Shown: positions 1 to 51,804 of the stretch, piece by piece | Layout of the letters: the number at the start of each line of letters is the position of its first letter | Position numbering within the stretch: the first letter of the stretch is position 1 | Assembly (NCBI GenBank): GCA_021234155.1 | Contig: JAJEKV010000035.1 | Location: 3,176,224 to 3,240,223 of the forward strand | DNA length: 64,000 nt | Direction: 5' to 3' | Source of the DNA: Isoetes taiwanensis | Taxonomy: Eukaryota; Streptophyta; Lycopodiopsida; Isoetales; Isoetaceae | The notes under the pieces: generated by a model | What the model saw: only the letters and a program-made list of their open reading frames with translations | What the model was told of the DNA's origin: nothing | Databases searched by the model: none | Position numbers and translations under genes: made by a program

Positions 1-615
1 CTACTGCAATGGAAGATACAACTACAAAAATATGCTCAACAAATTTGGATCTCCGGATACACTTGGTGAGATCTACCTAAATTCTGATGTGTACAAAATC
101 CATAGTCAGCAAATGACACGAGTATACACTTGTTATTTTTGGTAGAAGGCATGTTGTTAAGACTTAAACTATGCCAAATGGTTCGATACAAGTAGAATTT
201 TAAAATTTTGAGATGGTTTATCCTAAAAATCTACAGGCTTAAAACTATGATACTTTAAAAGCTGAAAGTTTTTCATAGGAAATTATATGATGTTATACTC
301 AACTTGTGACTTTGCGAAATATGAATATAATGGAAAATTCACTCTCTTTAAAGTTACATGCATGGTGACTCTACATCAGGTTATATTATGTTATATTATA
401 AAATTGTACATTGATATGAATATATGAGTATGTTGCAAACTTGAGAAGATGGATTCCTTTTGATTTATTACTTATGCATGGGAATAGGAGTACCTGATGT
501 GGCCTGGCTTAAAAACCCAGGGTAGATATTGGGAAATATGTGCTCACTCTGAACGAAGTCTTTTAATTGTTTTTTTAAAACATTAATTGTACATAGTCTT
601 TGTGAGAACATCATC
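1..615 (+). mobile_element. E0: 3' part of a Penelope-like array unit, S2-ended
   Basis: This is the tail of a unit whose 5' part lies outside the window. The first ~110 bases, including TTGGTGAGATCT near 70, match the region after S1 in E12 (about 47940-48050). The end carries S2 (490-615) of the type seen in E1, E2 and E3, so the unit looks mosaic. No coding sequence is visible. It ends directly in a (GAA)36 tract. Confidence 0.75.
490..615 (+). promoter_or_regulatory. S2 structured RNA motif (E0)
   Basis: Outer stem GATGT/ACATC, hairpin CCTGG/CCAGG, and a long arm closed by CTCAC/GTGAG that contains CTGAACGA and TAGTCT. It ends CATCGAAG, where the GAA tract begins. The same architecture recurs in 12 other places in this array. 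Confidence 0.6.
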
Positions 616-723
616 GAAGAAGAAGAAGAAGAAGAAGAAGAAGAAGAAGAAGAAGAAGAAGAAGAAGAAGAAGAAGAAGAAGAAGAAGAAGAAGAAGAAG
701 AAGAAGAAGAAGAAGAAGAAGAA
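616..723 (+). repeat. (GAA)36 junction tract
   Basis: Pure GAA, 36 units, joining E0 to E1. The poly-Glu, poly-Lys and poly-Ser frames through such tracts are not proteins. Confidence 0.98.
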
Positions 724-2793
724 ATTGATTCTTCCAAAAAATATCGCACTGAAATTGAGTGAGCCTAACTGAGCTCTTAAAAAATTATTTGATGGATATG
801 CTTGCATGTCTTTTGTATGCTCCTATTTGTGCTACAATTGATGACTACTTTAGTTCTATGTCTTTGCATATGCATTAAGATTATATTTTTTTAGGGAGAA
901 TATAGACCATTAAAAGAAAAGAGGCCTTTTAATTTTACATAGGGCACACACATTTATGCCTTTATAGGTTTTTTTTAAAGAATCAATCTTGTACCTAGAT
1001 TGGATAGAGAATTTATTGGTGGTCTTAATTTGAAGACCCAATAATGTGACGTTTCATATACTCCATTGCAAAAAAAAAGATCCTTGTAATTAATGTGCAC
1101 GTCTCTTTTATAGTAGACACCTATGCATTTGACATATAATTTGTTTGAGAACATCCAAAGCATTTATTTGTGGCAGCCAATTTCGTACATACACATACCA
1201 GGTTAAAAAGGTAAAGGAGGAGCTAAAACTTATTAAGGCATGGGACGACCTATGCTTAGAATGTGCCGCTAGGGTTTGATATGCACAAGTATTCTCATTT
1301 CAATGGGGCCAATCCAAATATGGCATTGCAAATGCAAAGGCGAAGACCGTGTATGAGCGGTTATGCAAAAATCGGACCTCTGCTATACAGATATAGCACA
1401 AACGGCTTACTTTGGAAGGATGCTTGCACTGCAAAATGCAACAAATGCACCTGGCCGATGCCGAAAATGATGTAGGCATGTATATGCTCTGCCGAAATGG
1501 CATGGTATCTTGATCACGATGCATATTCAAATGCTAAGACTGGCTGGACTGAACTTTTGCAAAGTGACAAAATGACAAGCGGTTGAGTTATATGCCACAA
1601 CTTCAAACTCGGGTTTGCTTGCATTGTTTTCAAGTGAAAGTTTTGAAGTTAAGCTAGATTACGATATTTGTTCGAGAGATATATATCCGTTCAAGGCATC
1701 GCTTAGATCTACGATGCTAAGAAATAGAAATGGAAAACTGAAGTTAAAATATAAAAAACGTGGTTATGGATACGTGCTTAAACTATTTAAACTTTAAGCG
1801 AAAGCCTTTTCTAAGTTCGTCATAGATTAGTGGGCCTTATGAAAAAGTCTAATCATCCCTTGCATGTATAAGCGAAGGTTTTCTTCCATTAGATAATATT
1901 CATCCCCTCTATATATGCGTTTATATATGCTTAAGTTGTGCATAGACCGACTCTTTTTTGCTAAATATGGTCTGATCTTTATGGATTGATGAAATAATTA
2001 ATATGAAAATCTACTCTTAGCTATCTTGCTATGTTAGATCTTCTGATCGCAGTGTTATTCAAGGGCCAGCCTTTAAACAAAAGAGTGTTGATGGGCTGTA
2101 GTGTTTTAACCGCTATACACCCGCCGTTGATTGCCTTCCGTGAGGTGATTAAGCCGCATGGTAAGGTAACACATGGTTATATGATGATGGTTCTGATTTT
2201 AAACTACCGATAAGTTGTCATGTTAATCGCTTTGAGGCATAAGGTACTCATGCCATTTTCCTTAATTGTATTGCCTCTTTGTTATGCATGTACCACCTAT
2301 AGCTTAGGTTGGCCTGGATATCTTGAAAGCGGATAAGGGGAGATCACATGACTAATGCATGGCGTCAAATCCCCGATTCCTTTGCTAGATAACACGGAAT
2401 AAAGCCTATATCCGAACTTTATCTACTCACCTTTTTTTTTTATAAAAAGGAGCCCAAAAACCGTATTTGTCATATTCCATTTATTCTTTGATGTAGCCCA
2501 TCTTGGTTTCACTGTCATAACAGTTACAGCTCCTCCCTTTACCCATAAATTGGGGATAAACCTGATAGTACCGTCTGATACACTAAGTTAATGATATGAG
2601 GAGATATTTATGGAGCCCCACATGATTTAAAATGCTTTCTTCCTTAACTCTGTTAACTAGATGCCTATTATAATATACACCATATTGGTGTGAGATATGA
2701 GCTAGGTAAAGAGTTAGATCAGCCTACTTTAACCTACTGATAATTTTGTGGCTCTAGTGGGTTAAACTTATGATAGGTCTGCTGAAAATAATA

Positions 2794-2906
2794 GGTGAAG
2801 GGCGATAAGCCTAGGTGTTCTATGACTTACCGACCGGCTAGTTACCAATATGTTGCTAACTTTGTCCTTGTTTGGGTGCAAGTAACCAGAACACTCTCTC
2901 CTGGTG
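2794..2906 (+). promoter_or_regulatory. S1 pseudoknot motif (E1)
   Basis: Begins GGTGAAGGGCGATAAGCC. The pseudoknot stem GTGTTCT/AGAACAC is intact and GCTAAC precedes GGGTGCAAG. The GGGCG/CGCCC stem is broken here (CGACCGGC), and the usual TGCAG is TGCAAG. Confidence 0.55.
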
Positions 2907-3500
2907 TTATTTTCAGATGCTATTTGCTATTTGGTACAATCGAGGGGCCGTATGATGAAGATGGCCCACTATAATGGTTGTACAATTACTTGGTGAGATC
3001 TTCCCTTTTGATGGATAAATGAACAAAAGGGCACAAGTTAGCTATTGAATGTCGTATTAATGACTTTCCTTTGGACCCCTTAATCGGGCCGGTTTGCTCC
3101 TCATGATGCATAAACTCAAAAATCAGGACAAGGAGGATTACAGCTTTTAAATAGTCTTTGTTCTTGAAAACAAAAACCCGAGTGGTGATTTTTACGTAGA
3201 TGTTATCAATAACTTTGAATATTGCGCACTTATGTCTATTTATGAAATGTGAATGGAAAATATATTTGAATACTTGGATGACATATAAAGCTAATATAAA
3301 TCTAAAATGAAAATCGAAAAAAGACGTCTTTGAAAAAATGATTATATTAAATTAATACAAGTGATTATCGTGACAACCTAAATTGGGAAGGGAAGTAAGT
3401 CGATATTTTGAACATGGAATGAATATACATATGGATCTATTGGAACTTGAAACTGAACTTCTTAAATCGATTGTGCTATAAGACCTGTATATGGGAGTAG

Positions 3501-3627
3501 GAGTACCTGATGTGGCCTGGCTTAAAACACCAGGGTAGATATTGGGAAATGTGTACTCACTCTGAACGAAGTCATTTAATTGTCTTGTACATTATTTGAA
3601 TGTAGTCTTTGTGAGAACATAATAGTA
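3501..3627 (+). promoter_or_regulatory. S2 structured RNA motif (E1)
   Basis: CCTGG/CCAGG hairpin, then the CTCAC/GTGAG arm with CTGAACGA. The final CGAAG is changed to TAGTAGAAG before the GAA tract. Confidence 0.55.
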
Positions 3628-3768
3628 GAAGAAGAAGAAGAAGAAGAAGAAGAAGAAGAAGAAGAAGAAGAAGAAGAAGAAGAAGAAGAAGAAGAAGAAG
3701 AAGAAGAAGAAGAAGAAGAAGAAGAAGAAGAAGAAGAAGAAGAAGAAGAAGAAGAAGAAGAAGAAGAA
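3628..3768 (+). repeat. (GAA)47 junction tract
   Basis: Pure GAA, 47 units, joining E1 to E2. Confidence 0.98.
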
Positions 3769-5030
3769 AAATCTTGGAATATTGCATATATATAATAATA
3801 CGTCTACATTTGTGTGGATATGGAGAGATAATATTTGAATAAACAAGAGCATGGCTATTTCCTTGGGGGAACTTGTAAGATACAAGTTACATTAACGAAT
3901 TACTTTTAAGTGAAATATTATAGTTGTGGGGCTCATTAAGATGTGATATGGAAAAAAGCATGTGATATGGCAATAAGCATGGCAAGGGATACACGTTATT
4001 GTTGTGTGAAATATTTTATTGGAAAAAGTGTGTGATAAGGCAATGTTGGTGCATGGGCACAAAATGCATTAAATACCACTTTGACTAGTGGTTTAAAGTA
4101 CCTTGGAGATAGTGTATGGAAATTATAGTGATATTGATGGGTTTTAAGACGTATATGCAAATCTTAGACTTTTATTGATAAAGGCACAGAATTGAGGCTA
4201 ATAGCAGAGGCTATAGTCTTAAGATAGCATAATCCAGAGGAGTCAAAATTAATTGCGTGCATGCTACTTTAAAGGGAAAATAAGATACTAGATTGTATTG
4301 GGATAAGACGACCATGGGCATGGGCATGCTATATGGCAAAACTAGGTTTAGGGCTAATAGCCGAAAATAGACGTGCAAAAAAACAGATGGCATAGAAAAG
4401 CTTGTTGGTGTTAAAGGCCGCAAATGCTTGGGTCGCTCATACTCTTGGGTGCACAAAAAGAAAAAAAAGTGCTTGGCTACATTTGCATTGCCGCAATTTG
4501 TGGCCGCTTCCAAAACTGGCTGTGGGTTTGCACAGAGCAGATCGAACTACTCTTGGATGGAATGTACATGCTGTTTTGCATCTAAAGAAGCTGAGTTCCA
4601 GAGGCATCTAGCATCTGAATATGCCGTGAAGGAAAGTTGAAGCGCATTTTCAGCTGATGTTGCCAGCCCAGGACGTTTTTGGATATGGTGGCTGTCTGGT
4701 GGCATAAAGAACAAGGCTACCATTTGTACATGGAGGAAGATCTGATGCAAAACTATGAACTAGGAGGCGGTTCTTATCAGGTCAGGAATAATTTCTTTAC
4801 TTAGAACAAACTCATAAATGAGCAGGTCATTTGATATTTGTGTTCTATTTATGGCTTACGATCCCAAAACTGGCGTTTTTCTTAAAAGGGATATATGGTC
4901 CAGGTCTGATATTTGCTTTCTCTTTACAATAAGAATAGCATTAATTCTTGCTGCATGCGTCTCATTGTTGGGACTGTTTTAAGAGATCAATCTATCTAAT
5001 ATCTACTGCGAACTTCTTGCATATGCATTA

Positions 5031-5351
5031 GGGTAAAAGCATGCTACGGTGTACCACTTTTGGAACCCTCAAAAGTACCTACACTGGGTACTTTTAAAAC
5101 GGGTACTTTCTGTTTTTTCTTTCCATTAAAGCAATCGAAATTTTTTGAATTGAAGGTCAGTAACATGCCAATCTATAGTACTAGAGGATAACAATACTAT
5201 TAGAAACTAAAATAAATGAATTAACTCTCAAACTTATTATTTATTGTGGCATTTATGCAAGTTCCCAGTACCCAGTGTTGGGTACTTTTCTGGGTAGTTT
5301 CGCACTCCCTAAAAAGTACTTTAGATGGTACACCCTAGCATGCTTTCACCC
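5031..5351. mobile_element. 321-bp MITE (terminal inverted repeats) inside E2
   Basis: The ends form a ~25-bp inverted repeat: left GGGTAAAAGCATGCTACGG, right complement GGGTGAAAGCATGCTAGGG, continuing with GTGTACCA on both sides. ATTA flanks both ends (5027-5030 and 5352-5355) as a likely target duplication. Interior repeats of GGGTACTTTT; no ORF. Superfamily not assigned. Confidence 0.7.
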
Positions 5352-5731
5352 ATTACTATGATTTGGAATCTACATAGATGGTGGACACAAGGGAAACCAT
5401 ATTAATCTTCTTCCCTTTATCCTTTGATTTTGCCCATGATATTTGCATGGCTGTGATAGTTGCTGCTCCTCTATGTACCCTTAAATGTGCTATTAACCTG
5501 ATAAAAATTGTTTGATGCACTTTACTGATATTGGGTTACAGATATTGGTGGAGCCTCACATGTAATATTGTGCTTTCTTACTTAACTCAGTTATCTAGCT
5601 GCCTTTAAAACTATACACCATATTAGTGTATGACATTAGCTTGGATTTGAGTTTAAACAGCCTACATTAACCTGCTGATTTATTTGTGGCTCCAGTGGGT
5701 TATAATTATGATTGGTTGGCTGAAAATAATA

Positions 5732-5850
5732 GGTGAAGGGCGATAAGCCGGAGTGTTCTACTGCTTACCTGACGCCCCTTGGCTAGTTACCAATATGTTG
5801 CTAACTTTGTCATTGTTTGGGTGCAGGTAACCAGAACACTCTCTCCTGGT
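5732..5850 (+). promoter_or_regulatory. S1 pseudoknot motif (E2)
   Basis: Stems GGGCG/CGCCC, TAAGC/GCTTA, GTTACC/GGTAAC and pseudoknot GAGTGTTCT/AGAACACTC. GCTAAC branch point and TGCAG|GTAACC at 5822-5832. A GTGAGATC donor-like site follows at 5936, making a 109-nt potential exon. Confidence 0.65.
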
Positions 5851-6368
5851 GTTGTTTTCAGTTGATGGTTGCATTTGCTACAATCGAGGGACTGGATGAA
5901 GATAACGGCCCACTCTATGGTTGTAGAAATAATTGGTGAGATCTCCCCTTTGGTGGATAAATGAACAAAAAGGGGGCAAGTTAATTATTGAATGTTATAC
6001 ATTAACATTCCTTTGAGCTACCATTTGCTCTGCATGATGCATAAGTTCTGAAATTTGTAACATAAACGGTTGTGGGCTGGATTTATAGCTATTCGTGAAA
6101 AATAGATGTTGATAAAAAGAATTTCCTGACATGACCTTACTGATTTTGACTACAGATTTCTATCTTGCTATGAACTATGAAAAGAAAAAAATATTGAGTT
6201 ATATTGATGAACAAGAGGACGAATTTACACTTATTCAAGCTTTTTATGAATAGAAACAAGGATATGAATGGTTGTACATTATGTTATGATTTAAAGTTAA
6301 ATATTCCTGAATATGTCTGATGCAAGTCTATATTTTAAGTTCCAAAAAATAAATGTACATGGGAGTAG

Positions 6369-6490
6369 GAGTACCTGATGTGGCCTGGCTTAAAAACCCA
6401 GGGTAGATATTGGGAAATATGTGCTCACTCTGAACGAAGTCTTTTAATTGTTTTTTAACTTTAATTGTACGTAGTCTTTGTGAGAACATC
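6369..6490 (+). promoter_or_regulatory. S2 structured RNA motif (E2, read through into internal region)
   Basis: Same fold as in E0. Here CGAAGAAGAA is followed by the internal region (CTGTGACATC) instead of a long GAA tract. Confidence 0.6.
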
Positions 6491-6516
6491 ATCGAAGAAG
6501 AAACTGTGACATCTAT

Positions 6517-6536
6517 TTGGTGGAGGTATCCAGCAA
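6517..6536 (+). promoter_or_regulatory. S3 hairpin (E2)
   Basis: TTGGTGGA/TCCAGCAA with a 4-nt loop and one G-G mismatch. It is the counterpart of the S3 hairpins in E4, E6, E7, E8 and E12. Confidence 0.5.
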
Positions 6537-7094
6537 ACACATCATTTCTGAAACCATGAAATACTGCTGATTCTATAATTAGTTTTGGCATAACTAACTA
6601 TGATTATGATTTATTACAGCAGAATGGTAGGTGGTGGATATAATTTGCTAATCTGGAATGTGGGGCTATTGGAAATGCTCCTAAAAAAGCTGTCTAGCCT
6701 ACCTTGTACCTTAATCTCTTTGAAAAACCAGGTTAGAGTGATTGTCATCTGCTTTTGGATAAAGAAATATTACATGCTTTTTTATCATAAAGTAAGATTT
6801 GCTAAGTTATGATCTTGAATAGTCATAACTGGTTGGGGTTTGTGGTTCATAGTGCCATAAAACCTATATAATACAATAATTGGATGTTGGCCCACTGTGC
6901 CATATTCAAATGATGCCTTTGTGGCAATACACCTTTCCTGCTGAAATAAAACCTCTGTACATGCTTTTGTACATGTGCTGGCATACAATATTTAACATTC
7001 TGTGAATGTTGGCTGGAAATAAGCGTCCAGGTGTATATTTAATATGCATGGTTGGCATTAATTTAATGAGTGCTGGTTCTTTTCTTCTGGGTAA

Positions 7095-7178
7095 GGAAGT
7101 AGGACCCCTCCTTTTATAGGGGGGTCCTACTCTCCTATAAAAAAGATGGGTCCTACATCCTGAGGGAGGGATGTGGGA
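7095..7178 (+). terminator. Double-hairpin 3' end of E2
   Basis: First hairpin GTAGGACCCCTCC/GGGGGGTCCTAC; second built on CATCC/GGATG around GAGGGA. It lies immediately before GTGGGA and the GAA tract. Its role as an RNA 3' end is inferred from its fixed position. Confidence 0.6.
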
Positions 7179-7208
7179 GAAGAAGAAGAAGAAGAAGAAG
7201 AAGAAGAA
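7179..7208 (+). repeat. (GAA)10 junction tract
   Basis: Pure GAA, 10 units, after a hairpin-type end; joins E2 to E3. Confidence 0.97.
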
Positions 7209-8473
7209 GGAAAATCTTGGAATATTGCATATATATATAATAATACGTCTACATTTGTGTGGATATGGAGAGATAATATTTGAATAAACAAGAGCATGGC
7301 TATTTCCTTGGGGGAACTTGTAAGATACAAGTTACATTAACGAATTACTTTTAAGTGAAATATTATAGTTGTGGGGCTCATTAAGATGTGATATGGAAAA
7401 AAGCATGTGATATGGCAATAAGCATGGCAATGGATACACGTTATTGTTGTGGGAAATATTTTATTGGAAAAAGTTGGTGATAAGGCAATGTTGGTGCATG
7501 GGCACCAAATGCATTAAATACCATTTTGACTAGTGGTCTAAAGTACCTTGGAGATAGTGTATGGAAATTATAGTGATATTGATGTGTTTTAAGATATATG
7601 CAAATCTTAGACTTTAATTGATAAAGGCACAAAATCGAGGCTAATAGAAGCTATATTCTTATGATAGCATAATGAAAGGAGTCAAAATTAATTGCATGCA
7701 TGCTTGCTACTTTAGAGGAAAAATAAGATACTCGATTGTATTGGGATAAGACGACCATAGGCATGCTATATGGAAAAACTAGGTTTAGGGCTAATAGGTG
7801 AAAATAGACTTGTGCAAAAAAAACAAATGGCAAAGAAAAGCTTGTTGGCGGCAAAGGCCGCAAATGCTCATGTCGCTCATGCTCTTGGTTGCACAAACAA
7901 AGAAAAAAATGCTTGGCCGCATTTGCATGGCTACATTTTGTGGCCATTTCCAAAACTGGCTGCTGGTTTGCACAGAGCAGATCGATCTGCTCTTGGATGG
8001 AATGTACATGCTTGTTTTGCATCTAAAGAAGCCGAGTTCCGTTCGGGCATCTAGCATCTGAATATGCCGTGAAGGAAAGTTGAAGCGCATTTTCAGCTGA
8101 TGTTGCCAGCCCAGGACGTTTTTGGATATGGTGGCTGTCTGGTGGCATAAAGAACAAGGCTACCATTTGTACATGGAGGAAGATCTGATGCAAAACTATG
8201 AACTAGGAGGCGGTTCTTATCAGGTCAGGAATAATTTCTTTACTTAGAACAAACTCATAAATGAGCAGGTCATTTGATATTTGTGTTCTATTTATGGCTT
8301 ACGATCCCAAAACTGGCGTTTTTCTTAAAAGGGATATATGGTCCAGGTCTGATATTTGCTTTCTCTTTACAATAAGAATAGCATTAATTCTTGCTGCATG
8401 CGTCTCATTGTTGGGACTGTTTTCAGAGATCAATCTATCTAATATCTACTGCGAACTTCTTGTATATGCATTA

Positions 8474-8794
8474 GGGTAAAAGCATGCTACGGTGTACCAC
8501 TTTTGGAACCCTCAAAAGTACCTACACTGGGTACTTTTAAAACGGGTACTTTCTGTTTTTTCTTTCCATTAAAGCAATCGAAATTTTTTGAATTGAAGGT
8601 CAGTAACATGCCAATCTATAGTACTAGAGGATAACAATACTATTAGAAACTAAAATAAATGAATTAACTCTCAAACTTATTATTTATTGTGGCATTTATG
8701 CAAGTTCCCAGTACCCAGTGTTGGGTACTTTTCTGGGTAGTTTCGCACTCCCTAAAAAGTACTTTAGATGGTACACCCTAGCATGCTTTCACCC
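8474..8794. mobile_element. 321-bp MITE inside E3
   Basis: Same element, ends and insertion point as in E2, with ATTA on both sides. It therefore inserted before E2 and E3 diverged. Confidence 0.7.
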
Positions 8795-9173
8795 ATTACT
8801 ATGATTTGGAATCTACATAGATGGTGGACACAAGGGAAACCATATTAATCTTCTTCCCTTTATCCTTTGATTTTGCCCATGATATTTGCATGGCTGTGAT
8901 AGTTGCTGCTCCTCTATGTACCCTTAAATGTGCTATTAACCTGATAAAAATTGTTTGATGCACTTTACTGATATTGGGTTACAGATATTGGTGGAGCCTC
9001 ACATGTAATATTGTGCTTTCTTACTTAACTTCGCTTATCTAGTCGCCTTTAAAACTATACACCATATTAGTGTATGACATTAGCTTGGATTTGAGTTTAA
9101 ATGTTACATTAACCTCTGATTTATTTGTGGCTCCAATTGGGTTATAATTATGATTGGTTGGCTGAAAATAATA

Positions 9174-9288
9174 GGTGAAGGCGATAAGCGGTGTTCTCTT
9201 GCTTACACCCGACGCCTTTGGCTAGTTACCAATATGTTGCTAACTTTGTCATTGTTTGGGTGCGGTAACCGAACACTCTCTCACGGTG
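9174..9288 (+). promoter_or_regulatory. S1 motif, degraded copy (E3)
   Basis: Aligned to E2 S1 but reads TGCGGTAACC for TGCAGGTAACC and lacks several bases at former CAG/CTG sites. GTGTTC/GAACAC remains. Confidence 0.45.
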
Positions 9289-9802
9289 TTGTTTTCGGTT
9301 GATGGTTGCATTTGCTACAATCGAGGGACCGGATGAAGATAACGGCCCACTCTATGGTTGTAGAAATAATTGGTGAGATCTCCCTTTGGTGGATAAATGA
9401 ACAAAAAGGGGCAAGTTAATTATTGAATGTTATACATTAACATTCCTTTGAGCTACCATTTGCTCTGCATGATGCATAAGTTCTGAAATTTGTAACATAA
9501 ACGGTTGTGGGTTTGGATTTATAGCTATTCGTGAAAAATAGATGTTGATAAAAAGAATTTCCTGACATGACCTTACTGATTTTGACTACAGATTTCTATC
9601 TTGCTATGAACTATGAAAAGAAAAAAATATTGAGTTATATTGATGAACAAGAGGACGAATTTACACTTATTCAAGCTTTTATGAATAGAAACAAGGATAT
9701 GAATGGTTGTACATTATGTTATGATTTAAAGTTAAATATTCCCGAATATGTCTCGATGCAAGTCTATATTTTAAGTTCCAAAAATAAATGTACATGGGAG
9801 TA

Positions 9803-9928
9803 GGAGTACCTGATGTGGCCTGGCTTAAAAACCCAGGGTAGATATTGGGAAATATGTGCTCACTCTGAACGAAGTCTTTTAATTGTTTTTTAACTTTAAT
9901 TGTACGTAGTCTTTGTGAGAACATCATA
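9803..9928 (+). promoter_or_regulatory. S2 structured RNA motif (E3)
   Basis: TGATGT/ACATCA outer stem, CCTGG/CCAGG hairpin, CTCAC/GTGAG arm; GAA tract begins at once. Confidence 0.6.
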
Positions 9929-10090
9929 GAAGAAGAAGAAGAAGAAGAAGAAGAAGAAGAAGAAGAAGAAGAAGAAGAAGAAGAAGAAGAAGAAGAAGAA
10001 GAAGAAGAAGAAGAAGAAGAAGAAGAAGAAGAAGAAGAAGAAGAAGAAGAAGAAGAAGAAGAAGAAGAAGAAGAAGAAGAAGAAGAAGAA
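9929..10090 (+). repeat. (GAA)54 junction tract
   Basis: Pure GAA, 54 units, the longest in the window; joins E3 to E4. Confidence 0.98.
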
Positions 10091-10708
10091 GGAGGAGACT
10101 TAGGTTAAAACCATTAAAAGGAAAAATTTGATGGACTTGTATGAAGATATATGATTTATATTTTTTGGGGGTCACATCATCTTTTTAATGCTAAGGATCT
10201 TCCAATTCTGGCTCTTTATTTGATTATCTCACATAAGACCCAATGGGGCTTGATGTATTTAGGTGCATTTTGGGATGTTGGCATACCTTAAGAGACGTTG
10301 GGAGTTTTGCCTACTAAGGATGGCTAAATTGCAAAAGGGTCGGATACAACAAAAATTACAATGGTGAATATGCTTTTAAACGAAATATTATTTTATGATA
10401 TTTTTCTCCTCTCACGTATCATCGAGTTATGTTAAACGGCGAGTTATGGCGTCAAAGACCAAAGGATAGAACTGACCATGACTGGACCCTAGATTTTGTC
10501 AGGGAATTTCTCGAGCTTACTTCCCAATAAAATAGTTGGTGGCTCTTTAACATAAACTGTGGTGGCCATTAATGCTAGGATATGCAAGATTCATGAACTT
10601 ATACATTCTGAAATGGCGCACAAATTATTCCTGAATCTTGTTTGCCGCCTCCGCTTGTGTTACGAAAATATTTTGCTGTGACTGGTGTGGCCATTTCAAC
10701 GATTTGCC

Positions 10709-39505: not shown

Positions 39506-39525
39506 TTGCTGGAGATATCTGGCAA
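39506..39525 (+). promoter_or_regulatory. S3 hairpin (E8)
   Basis: TTGCTGGA GATA TCTGGCAA, identical to E7. Confidence 0.55.
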
Positions 39526-39964: not shown

Positions 39965-39982
39965 GAAGAAGAAGAAGAAGAA
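39965..39982 (+). repeat. (GAA)6 junction tract
   Basis: Shortest tract in the array; joins E8 to E9. Confidence 0.95.
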
Positions 39983-41485: not shown

Positions 41486-42836
41486 GGCAAAATGGAGCTA
41501 AACGGCAAGCAAGTTCTTCCTCTTACGCAAATGCAAATTCATCGATATTGAGGCGACAAGAATCGGGTTTGGGATGATTGCTTTGCTAAAGGTGTTGGTT
41601 TATTTAAGGGTCTACATGTGTTCTTTAGCTTTCCTGATTTGAAATAAGGGTTGAAATAACAGACAGAAATTCGTTTCTTGTATTTGGTGAAGATATGATA
41701 GGTTTTCAATTATTTGGGATAGCTTATTGAGTAGGGACTTAAGAATATAGTAGCATGCGGTCATATGTACATTAAATGCTTGAATAATCAGATGGAATTG
41801 CTGTTCTGTGGCTGAACCGGCAAGATATATGTATGTTGCCTTTAGTATTCCGATTTGTTAAGAGGCTTGTTGGTTTGCCTAGGTATGTACATTGATTGAT
41901 AGGATAGGTGTTCTGGGGGTGCGCAGATTCATGGAGATAGATGCATATAGGCTTGGCTAGGTGTGCTGCTTTTGATTTATGATTGCTTATAATTGCTGAT
42001 ATATGTGTGATAGAGTGGTAGGCAGTGCTTATGCTTGATTATGGTGTAGGCTTTATGTTTCATTTTAGCTCGTTTGAGACTTTGAATGCTATTATGTTTG
42101 ATCTTCTTGATCGTGCAGTATGGCTGCTCATTTTGGTTTATGAAGCTTGTGGCATGCCTTTAGTGTAGGGTACGGTTAGACTAGGTTTGTGGTCTATGAT
42201 TAGATCTATGGTTGCATAGGGGTCTGTGGTCTATTTCGGTTTCTGTAAGTGTGCTTGGTGGGCTTTGTGGCCTGTATGGGGCATGGTTCATTGAGAGGCA
42301 AGCTAATACATCTGAGACTAATATGAAAACACCATGGTCTTGTATGTTTGAAGACCTGTTGATGAGTAAGCATTTAATGAGCTTAAGTAAGTATGATAGA
42401 GGTTGAATTCGTTGAGAGTAGTAGGATGAAGAATAAATATGATATTACCCTGTCTGGGATGGTTTAAGACTGGTATAAGTGGATTTCATAGGGATAAATT
42501 GTTGATTCCAGTTCTATTTGTATGTTCTTTAGTTGTTTGAGTATTTGTATAGTCAGGTTGGTGAAAATGAAGTCTGCATAATGTGTTTCTATTGTGAAGC
42601 GATAGTGTGTTAAGGTGGCATATTAACATGAACAAGATAACCTGTGCAATGGTGAAAAGACTTTGAGATGTCATTTAAATGTGCTGTCTACGTAATAAAC
42701 CTCTATAGTGGTACATGCTTATTGATTATAAGCTGGAATAAAATGGCTGTGGTAAGCAGCTCATGGATACAAAGTGGTTAACATAATCTGGTATGGGATT
42801 AGCTGTATATTAATGGGAAATGTTGAGGTGAAGGGC

Positions 42837-42942
42837 GATGAGCCAAGAAGTTTCATAGCTTACCTGTCATCCCTTGCATTGTTACCAAGTTGTTGCTAAC
42901 ATTTGCATTGTTTGGGTGCAGGTAACCGAAACTTCTTCTCCT
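42837..42942 (+). promoter_or_regulatory. S1 pseudoknot motif (E10)
   Basis: Pseudoknot stem AAGAAGTTTC/GAAACTTCTT is perfect over 10 bp. GAGC/GCTT, TTACC/GGTAA, TTGCTAAC and TGCAG|GTAACC are present. The outer stem reads GGGCGATG against TCATCCC. Confidence 0.65.
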
Positions 42943-43242
42943 TAATGTTTTTCATTTTGTGGAGAACATGAAAAACTTATGGTGATGGAATACTGCGCAT
43001 ATGGTGAGATCTAAACTGATGGTGGATAACCATAAACAGGGCTTCAGCATGATGGAATTAATGTTTTAACTTTTTGGATGAGAAGATTTCAGTTCTATAC
43101 TTGTATAATAAAGATATTTTCTGAAAATAGGGATATATTTGGATGTTAATATTGATTATAACAAAGGCAAGGTTTTCGTCTTTTGCATATGTTTTAACAT
43201 AATGATCTGCTATGTTAATTGACTATTAGGAATGCATCTATT

Positions 43243-43361
43243 GTGAATGGATATGGCCTGGGTTAAAATCCAGGGTGGATATAGTGGAATGTTTTTACCC
43301 TGAATTAAATCTGCTCTTGTAGTAGTACAAAGTAGTATTATAATCTGGGTAAAAACGTATC
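43243..43361 (+). promoter_or_regulatory. S2 structured RNA motif (E10)
   Basis: Outer stem GATAT/GTATC, CCTGG/CCAGG hairpin, arm TTTTTACCC/GGGTAAAAA (9 bp), CTGAAT and ATCT in the arm, then CGAAGAAG. Confidence 0.65.
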
Positions 43362-43475
43362 GAAGAAGAAGAAGAAGAAGAAGAAGAAGAAGAAGAAGAA
43401 GAAGAAGAAGAAGAAGAAGAAGAAGAAGAAGAAGAAGAAGAAGAAGAAGAAGAAGAAGAAGAAGAAGAAGAAGAA
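43362..43475 (+). repeat. (GAA)38 junction tract
   Basis: 38 GAA units between E10 and E11. Confidence 0.98.
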
Positions 43476-44000
43476 GGATAGATTATCGGACGCTTTATAA
43501 AAGACCGCTAGTACGCATTTTGAAGGAGACTGTGAAACCATACTCCCATGATTTTGTTACCATGGTTTTGGGCATGGTAGATTTAAATTTCGGTTAATAT
43601 GGTGCTCCAAATATGTATAAACATGTAAGTTTTTCTCATTGGCTAATAGTATGAATATAGGTGGCTTGGTATATTGGAGGTATCCTCTGATGTTTGTTTA
43701 AAAAGGGAGCCAGAATATGCCTATGAATATAATGTACCATTAAATATTTATATGTTGTAAATCTTGCATTTAATACCCTATTTACTATATGGGTTACGCA
43801 CTAAGACCTTTTTACAGTAATGGTCAGAAGGGGTAGCTCAGCCGAACGCATTTAAGATGGAGACCATTAGGCATGGCACCTTTTGACCATAGCATTAACC
43901 ACAGTGGCGGGAACACTTAGGATATAGTTGGTTGATAGTGGAACGCTAATATACCATTTGTGAAGACTCCTATTTGCTGCTCAAACAGGGAGTTCGAATC

Positions 44001-44165
44001 ATGCCTAAGGGAGTTTACGAGAGGGATCCCCCGAAGAAAAACAAGAGGAATCCCAGCACAGGAAACTTTCCTCCAAGAAAATATGGAAAAGCAAACTCTG
44101 GAAGCAAATTCAGCAATAACAGAGAGCAAGGCAAAACAAGTGGCAACGGGAGCGCTCAACAACAG
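44001..44165 (+). CDS. MPKGVY ORF (E11), in phase with its donor
   Basis: 55 codons, MPKGVYERDPPKKNKRN and on, to CAACAACAG|GTTTTT, phase 0 as in E4. The frame would otherwise close at 44192. It is Lys/Asn/Gly/Ser rich with no hydrophobic segment. As in E4, splicing to a phase-0 ORF1 acceptor would make it the N-terminus of ORF1; E11 itself has no ORF1, so only a related full-length unit such as E6 could express that product. Confidence 0.45.
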
Positions 44166-45062
44166 GTTTTTCTGAATGCCTGGTTCTTATAAATTATTCT
44201 ATGTTTAGTTTTGAGAAGATATTATCGGATATATGGCTGATAATATGATTAAAGCTATAAATAGATGAATTGGCTTTCTCTAAAAAGTCCACGATAATGT
44301 GCTAAGAAACCGTGCTTTTAGATAAACAATGCTTTTTGCTTCTATTTTTGCCTGTAAACAGCTTTATCCGGAAGATATTTACCCTATAAAGGGCATAGCT
44401 CATCATAATCCGAACCCTTTACAGCTCTATTCTTTCTGTTGTAAACATAATAATTATGGGCTGAATCCGATTATGGCTGTCCATTTAGTGTAAAGATTTG
44501 CACCACGATTTGGTTTCTATGTTTTATATTTGCATGCCTTATGTTTTGCATGAGCCTGCAATATGTATTTTGAAATTACATGGTATCCCTTAGACAGGAA
44601 AATCATATCTGATAAACTGAATTGACAGCATGCAGCTAATGGTTATATGGCATCCTACTTGGCGATATGAACAGAAACATTAATGTAGGCTTAGATTAGT
44701 TATGCAAATAGGTGGATGTTGTATCTGAGTTAGGCGTTTATATTGATTTCTTACATGATACTCCAGTGTATCAAACACCTCGGTGTGAGATTATGGTTGC
44801 TACTGCGATGGTCTGTTAGGTGTAAATAATACAGTAGCGCTGATACATAATGGTTTTGCCATGAGAAAATAGTTAAATCATGGCTGGAGATGATCTTCAT
44901 AATGGGGTAAATGTTTGGTCTTGGATCAGATATACATAAATAAAGTCTGAACCTGATCTGAAAGGTTGTAAATACTTCCAAAATGTTATGGATGTACAGA
45001 TAATGTATGTAATAATTTCAGAGGTATCTCACTTGACCTTATAGATGGCATTTGAGCCTAGA

Positions 45063-45173
45063 GGTGAAGGGCGAAGAGCCACGTAGTTTCACTGCTTACC
45101 TGACGCCCCTTGCATAGTTACCGTTTGCTAACTTATGTCTTGATTGGGTGCAGGTAACCGAATCTACGTCTCC
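45063..45173 (+). promoter_or_regulatory. S1 pseudoknot motif (E11)
   Basis: GGGCG/CGCCC, GAGC/GCTT, GTTACC/GGTAAC and pseudoknot ACGTAGTTTC/GAATCTACGT (one T-T mismatch). TTTGCTAAC and TGCAG|GTAACC present; donor-like GTG|GTAAGATCT follows near 45266. Confidence 0.65.
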
Positions 45174-45670
45174 TTATGTATGGTTCAAATGCTTTGTTAT
45201 ACAACATAGTATCAAAGAATGCTGAGACCTTGGAATGGTATAATACTAAGGCGAACAGCAGCATGTGGTAAGATCTGTCCAAATTGATGGCAAATGCTTA
45301 TGGAGAAGAGCAATGACGAATATATGCAATACTTTTTGACAGTATATTGAATATACGTTAATTTCTTAGACATGTGACATAAAGAAAGATATGTAATGAT
45401 ATCCATAAATCTGAATACTTAATAATTTGAAAATTATCTCCTAAAGACTCTATCCTTTTGTACACATACTATATTTCTTAAGATGCGTATGAATTCCTTT
45501 TAGTAATGATGTTTTATCCCATTTATTGTTGTTTGGTTTCATATATTCTCTATACAATAACAGGTGTCTAATATTCTGATATGGTCTAACTGACACAATA
45601 ATACAATAAGATATGATCAAAACCTTTTACCCTTTATACAGAATAAAATGAGTTTATAGGCTGAAAATCA

Positions 45671-45790
45671 TAACAGGTATGGCCTGGGTTACGCCAGGGT
45701 GGATATGTGTGAGTGTAATCTTCACCCTGAATGAGTACAACATAATGTTATTAAACATGTGATTGTATGTAATCTCTGTGAAGATGTGTC
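45671..45790 (+). promoter_or_regulatory. S2 structured RNA motif (E11)
   Basis: Same as E6 (ATCTTCAC/GTGAAGAT arm) but ending GTGTCGAAG into a long GAA tract; E6 reads GTGTCAAAG. Confidence 0.6.
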
Positions 45791-45865
45791 GAAGAAGAAG
45801 AAGAAGAAGAAGAAGAAGAAGAAGAAGAAGAAGAAGAAGAAGAAGAAGAAGAAGAAGAAGAAGAA
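45791..45865 (+). repeat. (GAA)25 junction tract
   Basis: 25 GAA units between E11 and E12. Confidence 0.98.
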
Positions 45866-47814
45866 GATTCTTCATCTTTTGAAAATGCTCTAATGAATCA
45901 TGAACACTTATGAAGGTGTTCTAATGATGCTCCATTAAATGATGCTCTGTTAAAGGAAATTATTTTTCAAATATGTGCTTTGTAACATAGCCAACATGAT
46001 ACAATATGGTCCACATGAACCAAATATGTCATGAACTTGCCTAAAGTTGTCTTTTGTGGGTTTGTTATAGCAGTTGGGTAAATTTGAGCCACAATATGAC
46101 ACTTTGGCATTTGATGAATTTTGTTATTCTGAGATAACTGGTGTAGCCAAAAAACAATAGGCCAAGTGTAGGCCAATGTTGCATGGTATCAATATGGTAA
46201 TAGCATAAATATGGTTCACACTAACCTTGCTTACAAAGTGAATTTTGATTCGTCACTTATAATGTTTTTTGACATACGAATGCATGTAAACTTTTCCTAT
46301 TTAAAAGTTATGCATGAACCTTTATTTCATGCAAGGTGACACGTGGTGGTACATGCAAATATGCTTTGCATGGCAACTTAATGGGGACTTGAAATTATAC
46401 AAAAGCACTCCTGATAAGTGAGCGGCCATATAAAGGTATGTTACTTTATTTCCTATGATGGTGACGACTCATACTTGGGCTCTACAATAATTAAATGTGT
46501 AGAAGTTTTTACTTACGGGACCATAAGGGGAAGTCAAGGGTTAGTTTGGCTTGAAAAATATGATATTCATATATGCTGGATATTTTGCCATTAATGGCAG
46601 AGGCACCAAAATCCTAAAAAGATGGAAAAGGGAGGACGAACGCATTAAATGCATAGATGCATTTTAGATGCTTTAGTGATGATTCGACCATTTTTGCATA
46701 AGGCATTTGGTGGAGGCAATCTCTGGACTGTGGTCTTATGATGCATACTAGCAAGTGCCGGAATGACGGCACCGAATATGTTTGGAGGCAAATGCCAGAA
46801 TAGCAGCACATCAAATATGCTTGATGTTGATTCGGTGGCTATGCAAAATAATCGGAATGCACACACTGCATACTTATATGATATGATAAGGATCTGGCTT
46901 TCATTGTTCAGATTTATGATTCCATGTAAGAAAAGGGCATGGAATATTTTCGTAGCAGATTTAAGCGTTCTTGTATCATGCTGGTGCTGATCTATAATGG
47001 ATAATGTGTCTAAAGGCAATGTCCTAAGGGGACCTGGCAAGATGGAAGAATCCAAAGCCAACATATCTGATCCGCACAAATACAAGAGACGAATGATCAT
47101 AACGGGAGCTTCGAAAATCAGGTAAGAAATGAATGTTTGATGTCATACAAACGAATGGAAAAATCTTTTGGATATCCCCTTATCTCTACTATGGTACAGG
47201 ACAGATTTTTGGGTAATATCATGAGATACAAACGAAAATGACTCATGTTCTTGCTGAATAAGCCTAATACAGGGACTGCCAAATTGTTGCACTGTTAATA
47301 AGTTCATTCCTTGCTGATCTGGACATTTAGAGCTGAGATGTGCAAAAGCATAGCGATAAATAAAGTTAAAGCTAGTATTAAGAGAGTTTGTGAAATATCA
47401 TGGTGGCTTTTGGCCAACCAAGCTACTATAATGAAATAATATTTTCTATTATGTAGGGTAGAGTTTTGTATCTATTAATATGATAACATAGGATAGGAGA
47501 TAATATGCAGCCCCTATCCAAATCGTTTGTCAATGTGATGCTTTGTTAAGGATATGAAGCATATGGCTGTTAAGATGCACAGTAATACATATTTTACAGG
47601 TTGCTATTTTTATAGTGATATGGGGATATGTCTTCATAAACCTTTGCTTCAAATATTTTAAAGATACGACAGGAGTATATGGCTGGGGTAGGCAGCCATG
47701 TACCAGCACTTATTATTATCATTATTGAATACATTTTCCTACTTTGCACTAATTACATGAGCTCCATTTGCTTAAATTACACCATTCTACTTTGTATAAG
47801 AATAGGTGAAGGGC

Positions 47815-47920
47815 GAAGAGCCGTAGGGTCTCATAGCTTACCTGACGCCCCTTTCCTTATTACCATTATCATGCTAATATTGGTCTGTTTGGGTGCAGGT
47901 AACCGAGACTCTATCTCCTG
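47815..47920 (+). promoter_or_regulatory. S1 pseudoknot motif (E12)
   Basis: GGGCG/CGCCC, GAGC/GCTT, pseudoknot GTAGGGTCTC/GAGACTCTAT, ATGCTAAT and TGCAG|GTAACC at 47894-47904; donor-like TTTG|GTGAGATC at 48004/48005. Confidence 0.62.
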
Positions 47921-48584
47921 TTTTTTCAAAGTTACAAGGCAACTACAATGGAAGACATGACTTGGAATGTCTACTCAAACTAATCAGATCTCCAGCTACT
48001 TTTGGTGAGATCTATCTAAATTCTGATATGTACAAAAAACATAGTCAGAAAAAGACAGGATAACACAGCTCTTAATTTTGCAAGGAGGCTAGTTGTTAGG
48101 ACTGAGGTCCCCTCATGAAATAGTACCAAATGGGTCAATATATTATTGCATAGTAATACTTTGAAAATTTGAGATGGTTTATGCTAATAGTCTACATGTT
48201 TAAAATGCTGATATACCATAATCTGAATGTCAATAAGGAATTCTTATGCTGTTATATGATAGAATGAAATATCCAATAGTAATACTTTGAAACTTTGAGA
48301 TGGTTTATGCTAAAAGACAACATGTTTAAAATGCTGATATACTATATTTTGAAAGTCAATATGAAGATGTTTATGCTGTTACATGATTTTATGAAACTAG
48401 ATGCTTCTATTTAGAAATTATAAGGCCACATGTTTACTCTATGAAACTCATAACTGTTTATTTTCTTAAAGTTGTGTTATAAAATGATTATCTACATACA
48501 TACATTATGTTCAAAGACAGATAATATGGTTTACTTTATAATTCTGCACATATATTCACATTTCCAACCATGTAAAGGTTACCT

Positions 48585-48712
48585 TATAGCTGTGGCTTGG
48601 GTTTTACCCTTGATGGATATATGGGAAAAGTTTACATCTTGAATGGAACTATAAGTTTGTATTTTATGCATTTATGGTGTAAGTCTAGATGTAAATGTGA
48701 ATAAGAAGAAAA
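48585..48712 (+). promoter_or_regulatory. S2 structured RNA motif (E12)
   Basis: Arm TTTACATC/GATGTAAA (8 bp) with TTGAATGG and AGTCTA; the first hairpin has changed (GGGT/ACCC). Ends GTGAATAAGAAG. Confidence 0.55.
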
Positions 48713-48724
48713 TGTGACTTCCAT

Positions 48725-48744
48725 TAGTTAGAGTCTTCTAACTA
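48725..48744 (+). promoter_or_regulatory. S3 hairpin (E12)
   Basis: TAGTTAGA GTCT TCTAACTA, a perfect 8-bp stem with sequence different from the other S3 copies. Confidence 0.6.
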
Positions 48745-48863
48745 GCACAGCTACACTTTACTTGGTTGATTCTCTTTATTGATCACATATTCCTTGTTTG
48801 GGATATTATTATGCATAGAATGTTAAACTTATTTTGGGAACTAATCTCTCTCATGTTATATAG

Positions 48864-48981
48864 AAAAGAACATGGTGGAGGAAACAGCTCCGAGAGATGG
48901 CCTTTGGGAAACTGAGACCTCCTAAATATGATGTCCAAGATGTTATCAACCGTACTTTACTTTACTGTGATGGCAGGATAT
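48864..48981 (+). pseudogene. ORF1 N-terminal relic of a third lineage
   Basis: After ATATAG the frame reads KRTWWRKQLREMAFGKLRPP and continues ~18 residues to TAA. It aligns with the first residues of E4 ORF1 (FKAVWIRHLADMGY) and E6 ORF1 (RKNVWNKLLVDLGY), all in phase 0 after an AG. Only about 39 codons are left. Confidence 0.55.
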
Positions 48982-49104
48982 AATGCAGGAGATGGGAAGA
49001 TGGCTGATCCCTGAATTATGGAAAATACGTAGTCTAGTACTACTACAGGCTGGAGATAACTGACAAGCTCAACTCTTTTGCAAATCAGGTTAGCTTGAAT
49101 TTTA

Positions 49105-49182
49105 GAAGAAGAAGAAGAAGAAGAAGAAGAAGAAGAAGAAGAAGAAGAAGAAGAAGAAGAAGAAGAAGAAGAAGAAGAAGAA
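49105..49182 (+). repeat. (GAA)26 junction tract
   Basis: 26 GAA units after the truncated end of E12. Confidence 0.98.
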
Positions 49183-50215
49183 GATTTCTCAGATAATAAA
49201 GGTAACCAAAAAGCAAGAGACCAAATGTTGGCTGATATTGCATGATATCAACATGGTAATTCCATAAATTTAAATATTGTGATAGTAAGTGTGGTAATAT
49301 ACTTGCTACTAAGACATTGGGACTCGGATGTGTTAGTAATATCCAATGGTCCTATGAAAGCTAAAAGCAAGAAGGAATATCTTGGTTTATTTCTTACTTG
49401 GTCATTTGACAACAGGATCCCATTTCTATGGGATTAACATCGGCTTTTTGGACACACTAGGTGCACAAGCACTTAACGATTCAAGTTAGATTGATTTATG
49501 GCATACTTAGTTATGCACAAAAATGTGTGATGGGCCATTAGAAAATAATAATGACTTTGGAGGACATTAAAAAATGGCATGCTTGCTTATGCACTAAGAT
49601 TGAAGGATGGCCATTACAAAGGCTATGATTTATGGTCGAAATGCTTATGGTGGGGCAAAATTTATTTCTTCTAGAACCATACAAATGCTTTGGACCATTA
49701 CGACTGCTATGGGTAATGGACAAAATATGTATCACTCTTTTTATGACATTACATTTTGACATTTGAAGTATACTAAGGTTGTTTAAGTGAGCTTTGAGAA
49801 GGGAAGCATTTTATCCACGTATTAGAGTTTATCTTTATAAAGGAATTGGGGCCATGCATGTGTGCCACATGTCACACAAAGCCTTTATGACAAGCATGGG
49901 GCATTTACCTCCCATGAATTATTTGCTCCTACGATAGGGATGGACTAGTGGTCTATATTGAATGAAGCACAAGTATTCATAAAATATCTTTATGAAGGAC
50001 AATACAAGGTCTAAACGAACAAAAGGTAATATTTTATTGAGTTTATATGCTATCTATTCTCTCCATATTTTTGGCCGATGAGCTATGGCGCCATAAAAAA
50101 TGTTCTGTAGAGCCGAACTATTTGTTGTTCTGTAGAGCCGAACTATTTGTTCTTAGAAGAGGCCTTTGCTGATACTCTGGGCCTGGCTCTGCCACTCTGT
50201 TGTTGAAGGACCGAA

Positions 50216-50354
50216 ATGCCTAAAGGTGCATACATGCATGGAGCACGTCACAACAAGATGGGAACTTTCCTCCCAAGAAATCTTTATGGAAAAAGATGGA
50301 GGGATGCAAACGAATCAAATCCAAGATGCCAATGCCAGGAGCGATCATATCCAG
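50216..50354 (+). pseudogene. MPKGAY ORF (E13), frameshifted
   Basis: Begins MPKGAYMHGARHNKMG. Up to ATCCAG|GTTTCT it is 139 nt, out of phase. In the neighbouring frame the last codons end in ...SDHIQ|, in phase with the donor, so a small indel near the middle (about 50280) would explain it. Basic, without a recognised domain. Confidence 0.4.
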
Positions 50355-50983
50355 GTTTCTATAATCTGTTTGGCTTTCATTCATTCTTTAGGAATCGATA
50401 CATGTAAAAGCAAATCCTAAAGCAGAGATTATGCTATTCTTAGATAAGTCTGCCATTATAAAACAACAACTTGAGATAATACAGAACAGAATAGAGGCTC
50501 TGTACATTTAGAACAGAGACATGCAAAAGCATATCAAAACATAAGGTGAAAGTCATTATTAAGAGCTTTTGCTGAAATATCATGTTTGCTTTTGGCAAGC
50601 AAATGGACTACCATAAAATACGAATTTTTATTATGTAGATTAGATTGTTGCATCTATTACTATGTTCATATAGTACATGCTATAATATGCAGGGCTATCT
50701 AAATCGTAGGTCCATGTGTTGTGCTTTTTTAAGGATATTAATCCCATGGATGGCACGATGCACAAATAAAGCATATTTTATAGGTTGCCATTCTTATGGT
50801 TGTATGGAGACATGTCTTCATAAACCTTTGCTTCTTATATTTCAGACATATGACAGGAGTATGTGGCTGGGGTAGGCAGCCATGCACAAATATATATATT
50901 GTTTTCATATACATTGTCCTACTTGCATTGATTATCAGAGCTCCATTTGCTTAAATTACACCATTCTACTTTGTATAAGAATA

Positions 50984-51097
50984 GGTGAAGGGCTTAAAAC
51001 CATAGTATCTCATAGCTTACCTGACGCCCCTTTCCTTATTACCAGTCATGCTAATATTGGTCTGTTTGGGTGCAGGTAACCGAGATTCTATCTCCTG
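50984..51097 (+). promoter_or_regulatory. S1 motif (E13), outer stem lost
   Basis: The 5' strand is GGGCTTAAAACC, so GGGCG/CGCCC is broken. The pseudoknot ATAGTATCTC/GAGATTCTAT still pairs (one T-T mismatch) and carries a paired change relative to E12. Confidence 0.5.
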
Positions 51098-51570
51098 TTC
51101 TTTCAAAGTTACAAGGTTGCAGCACACATGCAACTACAAAGGAAATCTATAAAGTTACATGGTTGCAGAAATAGTGCAACTACAAAGGAAATCGATACAT
51201 GGAGGTTACGTGAATGTTACACGGAGTAACGACTAGTTTTACATACATTTGGTGAGATCTTCCCATTCGTGGATCATGCTACATTAAATTACAAGTTTAT
51301 GGATCAGAAGTTTATGGATCATGCTACATTAAATACAAGTTTATTATGCTGAAAATTATGATATTTTGCTGAAAAACTGATATTGAAGATATAAATGCCG
51401 ATTCTACCTATACTATAATTTACACGATTCTATTTTCATGATTAATAAATGAAAGAATGATTACTATTTATTTCAAGTAAAGGTTGAAGTGCATGTTATA
51501 CGGATTACAATAAGATCTAAATTTAAGTTATATTGTGAAACTTTGATTATACCAAGGCATAATGGAAGTA

Positions 51571-51696
51571 GGAGTACCTGATGTGGCCTGGCATAAAACA
51601 CCAGGGTAGATATTGGGTGACATGTCCTTACTCTGAACGAGGCTTTTAATTGTTTTTTTAACATTATCTGACCGTAGTCTTTGTAAGAACATATTC
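51571..51696 (+). promoter_or_regulatory. S2 structured RNA motif (E13)
   Basis: CCTGG/CCAGG hairpin (loop CATAAAACA), CTTAC/GTAAG arm with CTGAACGA and TAGTCT, then TTCGAAG. Confidence 0.6.
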
Positions 51697-51804
51697 GAAG
51701 AAGAAGAAGAAGAAGAAGAAGAAGAAGAAGAAGAAGAAGAAGAAGAAGAAGAAGAAGAAGAAGAAGAAGAAGAAGAAGAAGAAGAAGAAGAAGAAGAAGA
51801 AGAA
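51697..51804 (+). repeat. (GAA)36 tract at the array edge
   Basis: 36 GAA units; the last tract. Unique-looking sequence follows. Confidence 0.98.

Follow-up and report, generated by a model that had tools for sequence, protein, structure and literature searches.

The stretch of Isoetes taiwanensis DNA analysed here (contig JAJEKV010000035.1, forward-strand positions 3,176,224 to 3,240,223; 64,000 nucleotides, hereafter the window) carries a head-to-tail array of Penelope-like element (PLE) pieces, U0–U13, with (GAA)n between them (positions 1–51804, + strand). We propose that these elements insert into purine microsatellites that were already present. Fourteen uninterrupted (GAA)n tracts lie at 616–51804 (in order, n = 36, 47, 10, 54, 11, 25, 10, 11, 6, 11, 38, 25, 26 and 36), with GAA on the + strand in every case. 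No (TTC)≥4 occurs anywhere in the window, and the last 12.2 kb (51805–64000) is flanking DNA containing no (GAA)≥4. In 100 mononucleotide shuffles of the window, no GAA tract of at least six copies arose. When the window is compared with itself (matches of at least 150 columns), families match in the same orientation only: 3735–6502 with 7178–9937 (95.7%), 10042–12915 with 17250–20132 (98.1%), 20124–22322 with 43398–45608 (96.5%) and 33582–37175 with 36748–40333 (98.5%). An earlier note on this DNA had described a head-to-tail, one-orientation array with pure (GAA)n, and this description holds. Its division into 14 successive units up to 51804 holds for the tracts and the orientation, but the array starts to the left of the window, where further copies of the S2-GAA end described below, in the same strand, lie at distances of ~8.8 and ~4.8 kb; in addition, hairpin junctions are mostly internal to an element, and U6 holds a Helitron-like insert.

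The anatomy of the element can be read directly from U4 (10091–17250, +), which has the most complete body, together with U5. A 2.8-kb 5′ region without long open reading frames (ORFs), resembling a pseudo-long terminal repeat (pLTR), ends in the sequence S2 and leads through GAAGAAGAA (12907–12915) into ORF1 and ORF2. Two adjacent strong hairpins, visible in the sequence (17176–17250, +), directly precede a short (GAA)11 tract (17251–17283, +), an internal junction into a second pLTR-like copy of the same family (U5, 17284–20123, +; 98% alike). This copy again ends in S2, followed by (GAA)25 at the outer end (20124–20198, +). The paired hairpins found at such hairpin ends possibly mark an RNA 3′ end or a processing signal.

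Two types of junction thus precede GAA, and they behave differently. In the window and loci L001–L020 (L numbers denote sampled S2 copies), hairpin-(GAA)~10 junctions enter the 5′ end of their own family in 9/11 cases and other junctions in 0/28 (Fisher p = 2.6e-7), using a score cut-off of 45 and a unit length of 800–9000, both chosen by us; L001, scoring 43, was counted as different. The hairpin-GAA junctions therefore appear to be mostly internal, joining parts of one element as a partial tandem, and this rules out the 14 units as 14 independent insertions. Since the junctions fit the pLTR-ORF-pLTR plan, which PMC3846280 gives as the organization of PLEs, S2-GAA is probably the usual outer end.

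At the boundary between the pLTR-like region and ORF1 lies a predicted RNA domain (12786–12956, +; covariation in 25 copies), in which helix H1 (12786–12791 with 12951–12956) surrounds H2, H3, a template loop and the hairpin H5. The candidate template is the GAAGAAGAA at 12907–12915 (+). In long copies S2-GAAGAAGAA is internal; in short copies the element stops at the equivalent base, where the target tract takes over. Further template copies lie in the window at 6494, 36315, 39483 and 48703 (AAGAAGAAA only), and a degenerate one at 28425. RNAalifold and pair counting support four helices: the enclosing H1 (GATGTG/CACATC) and H2, H3 just 5′ of the template, and the H5 hairpin 3′ of it. Among 25 long-form copies from several diverged families, 94.2% of 692 cells are paired, and two-sided changes occur in 15/28 pairs (76 cells). 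The pairing values and the covariation score were reached by 0/500 shuffles, the number of further pair types by 71/500; control slides by 1–3 columns let pairing fall to 36–48%. The template columns are unpaired in the fold, and the AAGAAGAA loop is bounded on its 5′ side by the covarying H3, as expected for the short repeat template of a telomerase RNA.

The underlying alignment (A1) started from 28 stretches retrieved by a pattern in which AGAAGA and a portion of the H2 3′ strand are fixed, so conservation at these bases is partly built in. Near-duplicates (L023, L034, L075 and the window copy at 39357) were removed, the window copy at 28310 was added by hand and some ends were hand-set, giving the final 25. 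The RNAalifold structure was edited before counting: a weak helix of three pairs surrounding the template loop was dropped and three outer pairs were added. Because the short copies lack H5 altogether, as well as the 3′ strand of both H1 and H2, a functional RNA should extend past the start site, as expected under internal initiation. The ending of short copies at the template base suggests internal, template-like initiation; for a lizard PLE, internal initiation has been demonstrated in vitro (PMC11167929). No Rfam family reached its gathering threshold in the window, including the hairpins at 17176–17250, and matches below that threshold are weak. No hammerhead ribozyme, a feature of other PLEs, was found in permissive scans of 12600–13150 and 17080–17420 or at Rfam gathering in the window, although degenerate ribozymes could escape such scans.

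ORF2 (15129–17171, +; 680 aa) encodes a reverse transcriptase (RT) which we take to be that of a Penelope-like element, with a predicted TERT-like fold. Comparison of its model with known structures places TERT in all of the best 17 rows, followed by group II intron RT (12.6) and LINE-1 (11.6); the RT is thus closer to TERT than to LINE or LTR RTs. Residues ~60–680 of the model align with ranges of TERT chains, such as 326–1102 of the human protein, that span the TRBD, RT and C-terminal extension (CTE). Sequence searches of PDB returned nothing for this RT. Its closest named proteins are those of Selaginella, a grouping with an SH-aLRT value of 88 and long branches in a tree built without Athena or Coprina references. 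An N-terminal GIY-YIG-like part is present in P0041 and P0037, which are distant relatives by sequence. P0041 is labelled as a protein of a bacterial metagenome-assembled genome; it resembles a Penelope-like RT with an N-terminal GIY-YIG and is possibly a contamination.

ORF1 (13150–14622, +; 490 aa) has no homologue at E ≤ 0.001, and its single-sequence AlphaFold2 model (pLDDT 34.9) is of no use. Pfam and NCBIfam detect no nuclease domain in ORF1 or ORF2. GIY-YIG gave no match in ORF1, ORF2 or 28 members of set A2, and Pfam gave none for the GIY-YIG-like part of P0037 either. The units look like endonuclease-lacking PLEs.

The nature of the tracts was assessed on 40 S2 cores, hand-picked from the first 100 of 500 genomic copies and therefore not a random sample; the presence of S2-GAA3 was the criterion for choosing the first 20 loci, and end classes and GAA counts were assigned by eye from sequence ends. 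The sample comprises 12 long forms, all 12 of which keep AAGAAGAAA, 24 S2 outer ends and 4 copies without an S2 end. Of the 24 outer ends, 14 adjoin a GAA tract, 4 a different purine microsatellite (GGA in two cases, GAAAAA and GAAA in one each), 2 an A-run and 4 a short stretch of GAA-like sequence only. At the ten outer ends that do not adjoin a GAA tract, the junction holds 0–3 GAA, no more than the RNA template itself. One copy (L041/L061) is flanked by (GAAAAA)n on both sides. Four pairs of copies have a common target site, their flanks being more alike than their S2 ends: L009/L053 (96% and 73%, respectively), L014/L045 (99% and 74%), L017/L025 (88% and 80%) and L015/L038 (80% and 67%). 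The flanks of L015 read, in our interpretation, as a poly-Glu coding stretch. An insert-free relative of the flank of L047 is present in L011 (81% alike) and has (GGAA)n at that place, which makes it a possible empty site. Among 20 5′ regions of 1.3 kb each, a purine tract lies on the 5′ side in 8 and a long A-run in 1, and 11 contain no purine run of at least 22. As the RNA contains three GAA and the type of tract depends on the target, the tract would pre-exist; the comparison supports the view that long tracts belong to the target and that existing polypurine tracts are used. A separate 5′-truncated copy (L017:7425–7720) is joined at its 5′ end to (CTTC)n, beside the same repeat as the flank of L047, in opposite orientation.

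Genome-wide, exact S2-core copies number 500, against 0 for the control. All neighbour pairs within 25 kb share the same strand (54/54, 0 opposed, among 100 of the 500 copies). Diverged families contain such copies, which are spread over many contigs and in some cases lie far from a contig end (e.g., at ~40.8 Mb of a 53.1-Mb contig); misassembly is therefore an unlikely source of the array. S2 copies were not seen beside telomeric repeats: the nearest pair of an S2 copy and a TTTAGGG tract is more than 0.8 Mb apart, on five contigs common to both among 100 listed places each. For RT matches (65 of 4526 candidates in the genome were scored), the nearest TTTAGGG tract among the matches listed is ~138 kb away on contig C334, at base 699 near the contig end. 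Telomeres seem poorly assembled in this genome; the listed TTTAGGG tracts are short, and many of them lie within contigs rather than at their ends.

These results modify the earlier note in several respects. Its idea that the RT targets existing tracts gains from the variety of tract types, the copy flanked on either side by (GAAAAA)n and the four shared target sites. It had named a majority of copies ending without GAA as evidence that would overturn its reading; instead, 212/255 forward-strand cores have GAAGAAGAA 90–120 nt downstream, long copies with their internal GAA3 included. The attribution to endonuclease-deficient PLEs is borne out by the TERT-like RT and the undetected GIY-YIG, but not by the location relative to telomeres. 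Likewise, polypurine repeats, mostly GAA, do appear to take the place of the telomeric repeat, but (GGA)n, (GAAA)n, (GAAAAA)n and A-runs serve as well. What it overlooked is that GAAGAAGAA apparently serves as an internal template, set within an RNA fold that covaries.

We conclude, with a probability of roughly 0.78, that these are endonuclease-lacking Penelope-like retroelements inserting into existing polypurine microsatellites, above all (GAA)n. RNA would be transcribed from tandem pLTR-ORF-pLTR copies, and the TERT-like RT presumably binds the folded domain at the pLTR/ORF boundary. There, single-stranded AAGAAGAA would sit between the 5′ helix H3 and the 3′ strand of the enclosing H2, with H5 further 3′. 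A TTC-rich DNA 3′ end from a break or nick in a GAA/TTC tract could pair with AAGAAGAA and prime cDNA synthesis upstream through the pLTR. Since no endonuclease is seen, breaks in GAA/TTC tracts, presumably made by the host, are a likely source of such ends; priming at telomeres or breaks has been proposed for endonuclease-deficient PLEs (PMC3846280). The 5′ end would then attach to the opposite side of the tract, except in truncated copies, where it would attach to other DNA. The purine tract would stay at the 3′ side of each insertion, often at both sides and with the same polarity, as a fresh landing site. With tract polarity fixing orientation and the tract retained beside each insertion, nested head-to-tail arrays of one orientation would result, and the elements may be active at present.

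Several observations weigh against this conclusion. The uncharacterized ORF1 could hide a nuclease, and the failure to detect GIY-YIG in ORF2 comes from whole-sequence searches and from a TERT alignment that covers residues ~60–680. The hairpin junctions at 33631 and 40361, outside the unit-length limits, enter other families, bringing the total to 9/13, and the tract at 49105 is preceded by neither S2 nor hairpin. The S2 end is absent in 4/40 sampled copies; in L038 and L042, GAA follows although ~40 nt of S2 are missing. The 4 ends with short GAA-like sequence may represent just copied template. Nine copies were followed further (L035, L040, L045, L048, L049, L053, L054, L059 and L060), and 0/9 have a purine tract at the estimated 5′ junction, placed solely by where homology to other copies ends; many insertions thus do not split a tract. 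Several of the nine look 5′-truncated and joined to other DNA, and in L059 an (AAAG)n tract lies ~210 bp beyond the estimated junction. Shared-site pairs of the L009/L053 type could also arise if a later element entered a tract that a previous insertion had left behind. Among the copies, no target-site duplication could be clearly recognized, a 20-bp direct repeat near both junctions of L059 being ambiguous.

The earlier note had also suggested that the RT makes the repeats itself, in the manner of telomerase; it would then copy GAAGAAGAA over and over. A three-repeat template 3′ of a helix, a TERT-like RT and long pure tracts at S2 ends would all suit such synthesis. Nevertheless, just 0–3 GAA stand at the ten outer ends of the sample that lack a GAA tract, which speaks indirectly against iterative repeat addition, (GAAAAA)n and (GGA)n cannot derive from this template, and target tracts are common to different families. 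Nor do tract lengths at S2 ends (n = 29, median 22, range 5–69) differ significantly from those at hairpin ends (n = 20, median 11; p = 0.17). The short ends, the copy with (GAAAAA)n on either side and the shared target sites rule out RT-made tracts as the main source, and we regard repeated copying as quite improbable. Even less probable is that (GAA)n is simply the element's own 3′ tail, comparable to the simple-repeat tail of a LINE, with insertion untargeted. GAA tracts do follow most sampled outer ends (14/24) and truncated copies have their 5′ junctions in other DNA, but the supposed tail varies with the target (GGA, GAAA, GAAAAA, A), L041 has the same tract on both sides, the same target tract was hit repeatedly and internal copies hold just three GAA.

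GAA tracts are recombinogenic, and unequal crossing-over between them might have built the array by tandem duplication of one or a few insertions. The 98.5% likeness of U7 and U8, hairpin flank included, agrees with this and can be so explained. Across non-hairpin junctions, however, neighbours belong to different families (0/28 the same), and a single orientation prevails in 54 pairs from many arrays, so that duplication can explain only a minority of units; as an account of the whole array it is very improbable. A more serious, though still unlikely, possibility is that ORF1 or a host factor acts as a GAA/TTC-directed endonuclease, and that nuclease-targeted, target-primed reverse transcription replaces priming at chance breaks. 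It draws on the strong purine-tract preference and on an ORF1 without known homologue. Against it stand the varied purine repeats among the targets, the joining of 5′-truncated copies to unrelated DNA and the lack of any nuclease domain in ORF1 or ORF2 by Pfam or NCBIfam, the ORF1 model being of no help. Insertion into existing tracts through template pairing accounts for these observations best in our view.

The remaining units of the array are as follows. U1 (724–3627, +) is S2-ended and followed by (GAA)47. U2, a long form without ORFs of at least 150 aa and with a hairpin-GAA10 junction at 7179, and U3, of the same family with an S2 end and then GAA54, occupy 3769–9928 (+). U6 (20199–33630, +) comprises a 5′ part of family C, the Helitron-like insert, ORF1 (28722–30158), a broken ORF2 (31425–33500) and a hairpin, followed by GAA10. 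The insert (22313–28231, 5.9 kb) lies between A and T, has Helitron-like ends (TC at one end; a hairpin then CTAG at the other) and carries fragments of pentatricopeptide repeat (PPR) and importin-beta genes; its uninterrupted counterpart is located at ~45599. U7 and U8, long forms without ORFs of at least 150 aa, and the truncated U9 span 33661–40360 (+), with hairpin junctions at 36797, 39965 and 40361. U10–U13 (40394–51696, +) have S2 ends at 43361, 45790 and 51696 and a third end type at 49104; the bases preceding that tract (49105–49182) resemble the sequence downstream of hairpin H5. The 5′ ends at 33661, 39983 and in L002, L006 and L014 start near GAGAATATTCTC, a perfect palindrome, and such ends vary by a few bases.

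We further speculate, tentatively and at clearly less than even odds, that the element works as a telomerase analogue complete in itself, combining a TERT-like RT that has a TRBD-like part, a structured RNA in cis and, enclosed in that RNA, a AAGAAGAA template that aligns DNA 3′ ends through base pairing, the template alone setting the target. If so, changing the template would change the address, telomere targeting of the Athena type would be a special case of a general mechanism in which templates give the address, and the element would be a living intermediate between retroelements that pair RNA with target and telomerase. A covariation-supported RNA domain presenting a short repeat as a candidate internal template, together with an RT predicted to fold like TERT, makes the link between Penelope and telomerase testable. 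Polypurine microsatellites, one of them reading as a poly-Glu coding tract, would also form a self-renewing retroelement niche and a route to the accumulation of GAA-bounded arrays in a plant genome.

In the literature searched, mostly outside subscription papers, which include key PLE papers, we found no PLE with an internal structured GAA template addressing interstitial purine repeats. The word "Penelope" is absent from the main text of the I. taiwanensis (PMC8566536) and I. sinensis genome papers, and the two publications found that join Penelope and Isoetes concern, by title and abstract, other matters. Among known systems, the Isoetes element shares an RT without GIY-YIG with Athena and the Terminons of bdelloid rotifers and with the endonuclease-lacking PLEs of Selaginella, and no endonuclease was detected in it, its ORF1 being uncharacterized. 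Most Athena copies end 3′ in a short stretch of target (telomeric) repeats (PMC5537684); Terminons are thought to use RNA 3′-end repeats complementary to the overhang and form long chains (PMC12477314); and Selaginella PLEs without endonuclease are listed in PMC9033089. In contrast to these elements and their telomeric repeats, the Isoetes element appears to target interstitial polypurine microsatellites, and its putative template is internal, within a covarying fold; no hammerhead was found in the regions scanned.

Poseidon of Anolis (PAc) offers a parallel in layout, with pLTR-ORF-pLTR tandems, an internal RT start in the RNA and genomic copies that end at start sites (PMC11167929). The Isoetes element likewise has such tandems and copies ending at what appear to be internal start sites, but PAc possesses a GIY-YIG nuclease, and none was detected here. 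Simple-repeat targeting is also known from microsatellite-specific non-LTR retrotransposons, namely some HERO families and Togen, which inserts into (TG)n (PMC4640811). HERO and Togen are non-LTR elements with a restriction-like endonuclease (RLE), whereas the Isoetes RT is Penelope/TERT-like and closest to TERT, with neither an apurinic endonuclease (APE) nor an RLE detected by Pfam or NCBIfam. Compared with telomerase, composed of TERT and telomerase RNA, the Isoetes RNA is a cis-acting part of a mobile element and would be copied past the template, with no sign of iterative repeat addition.

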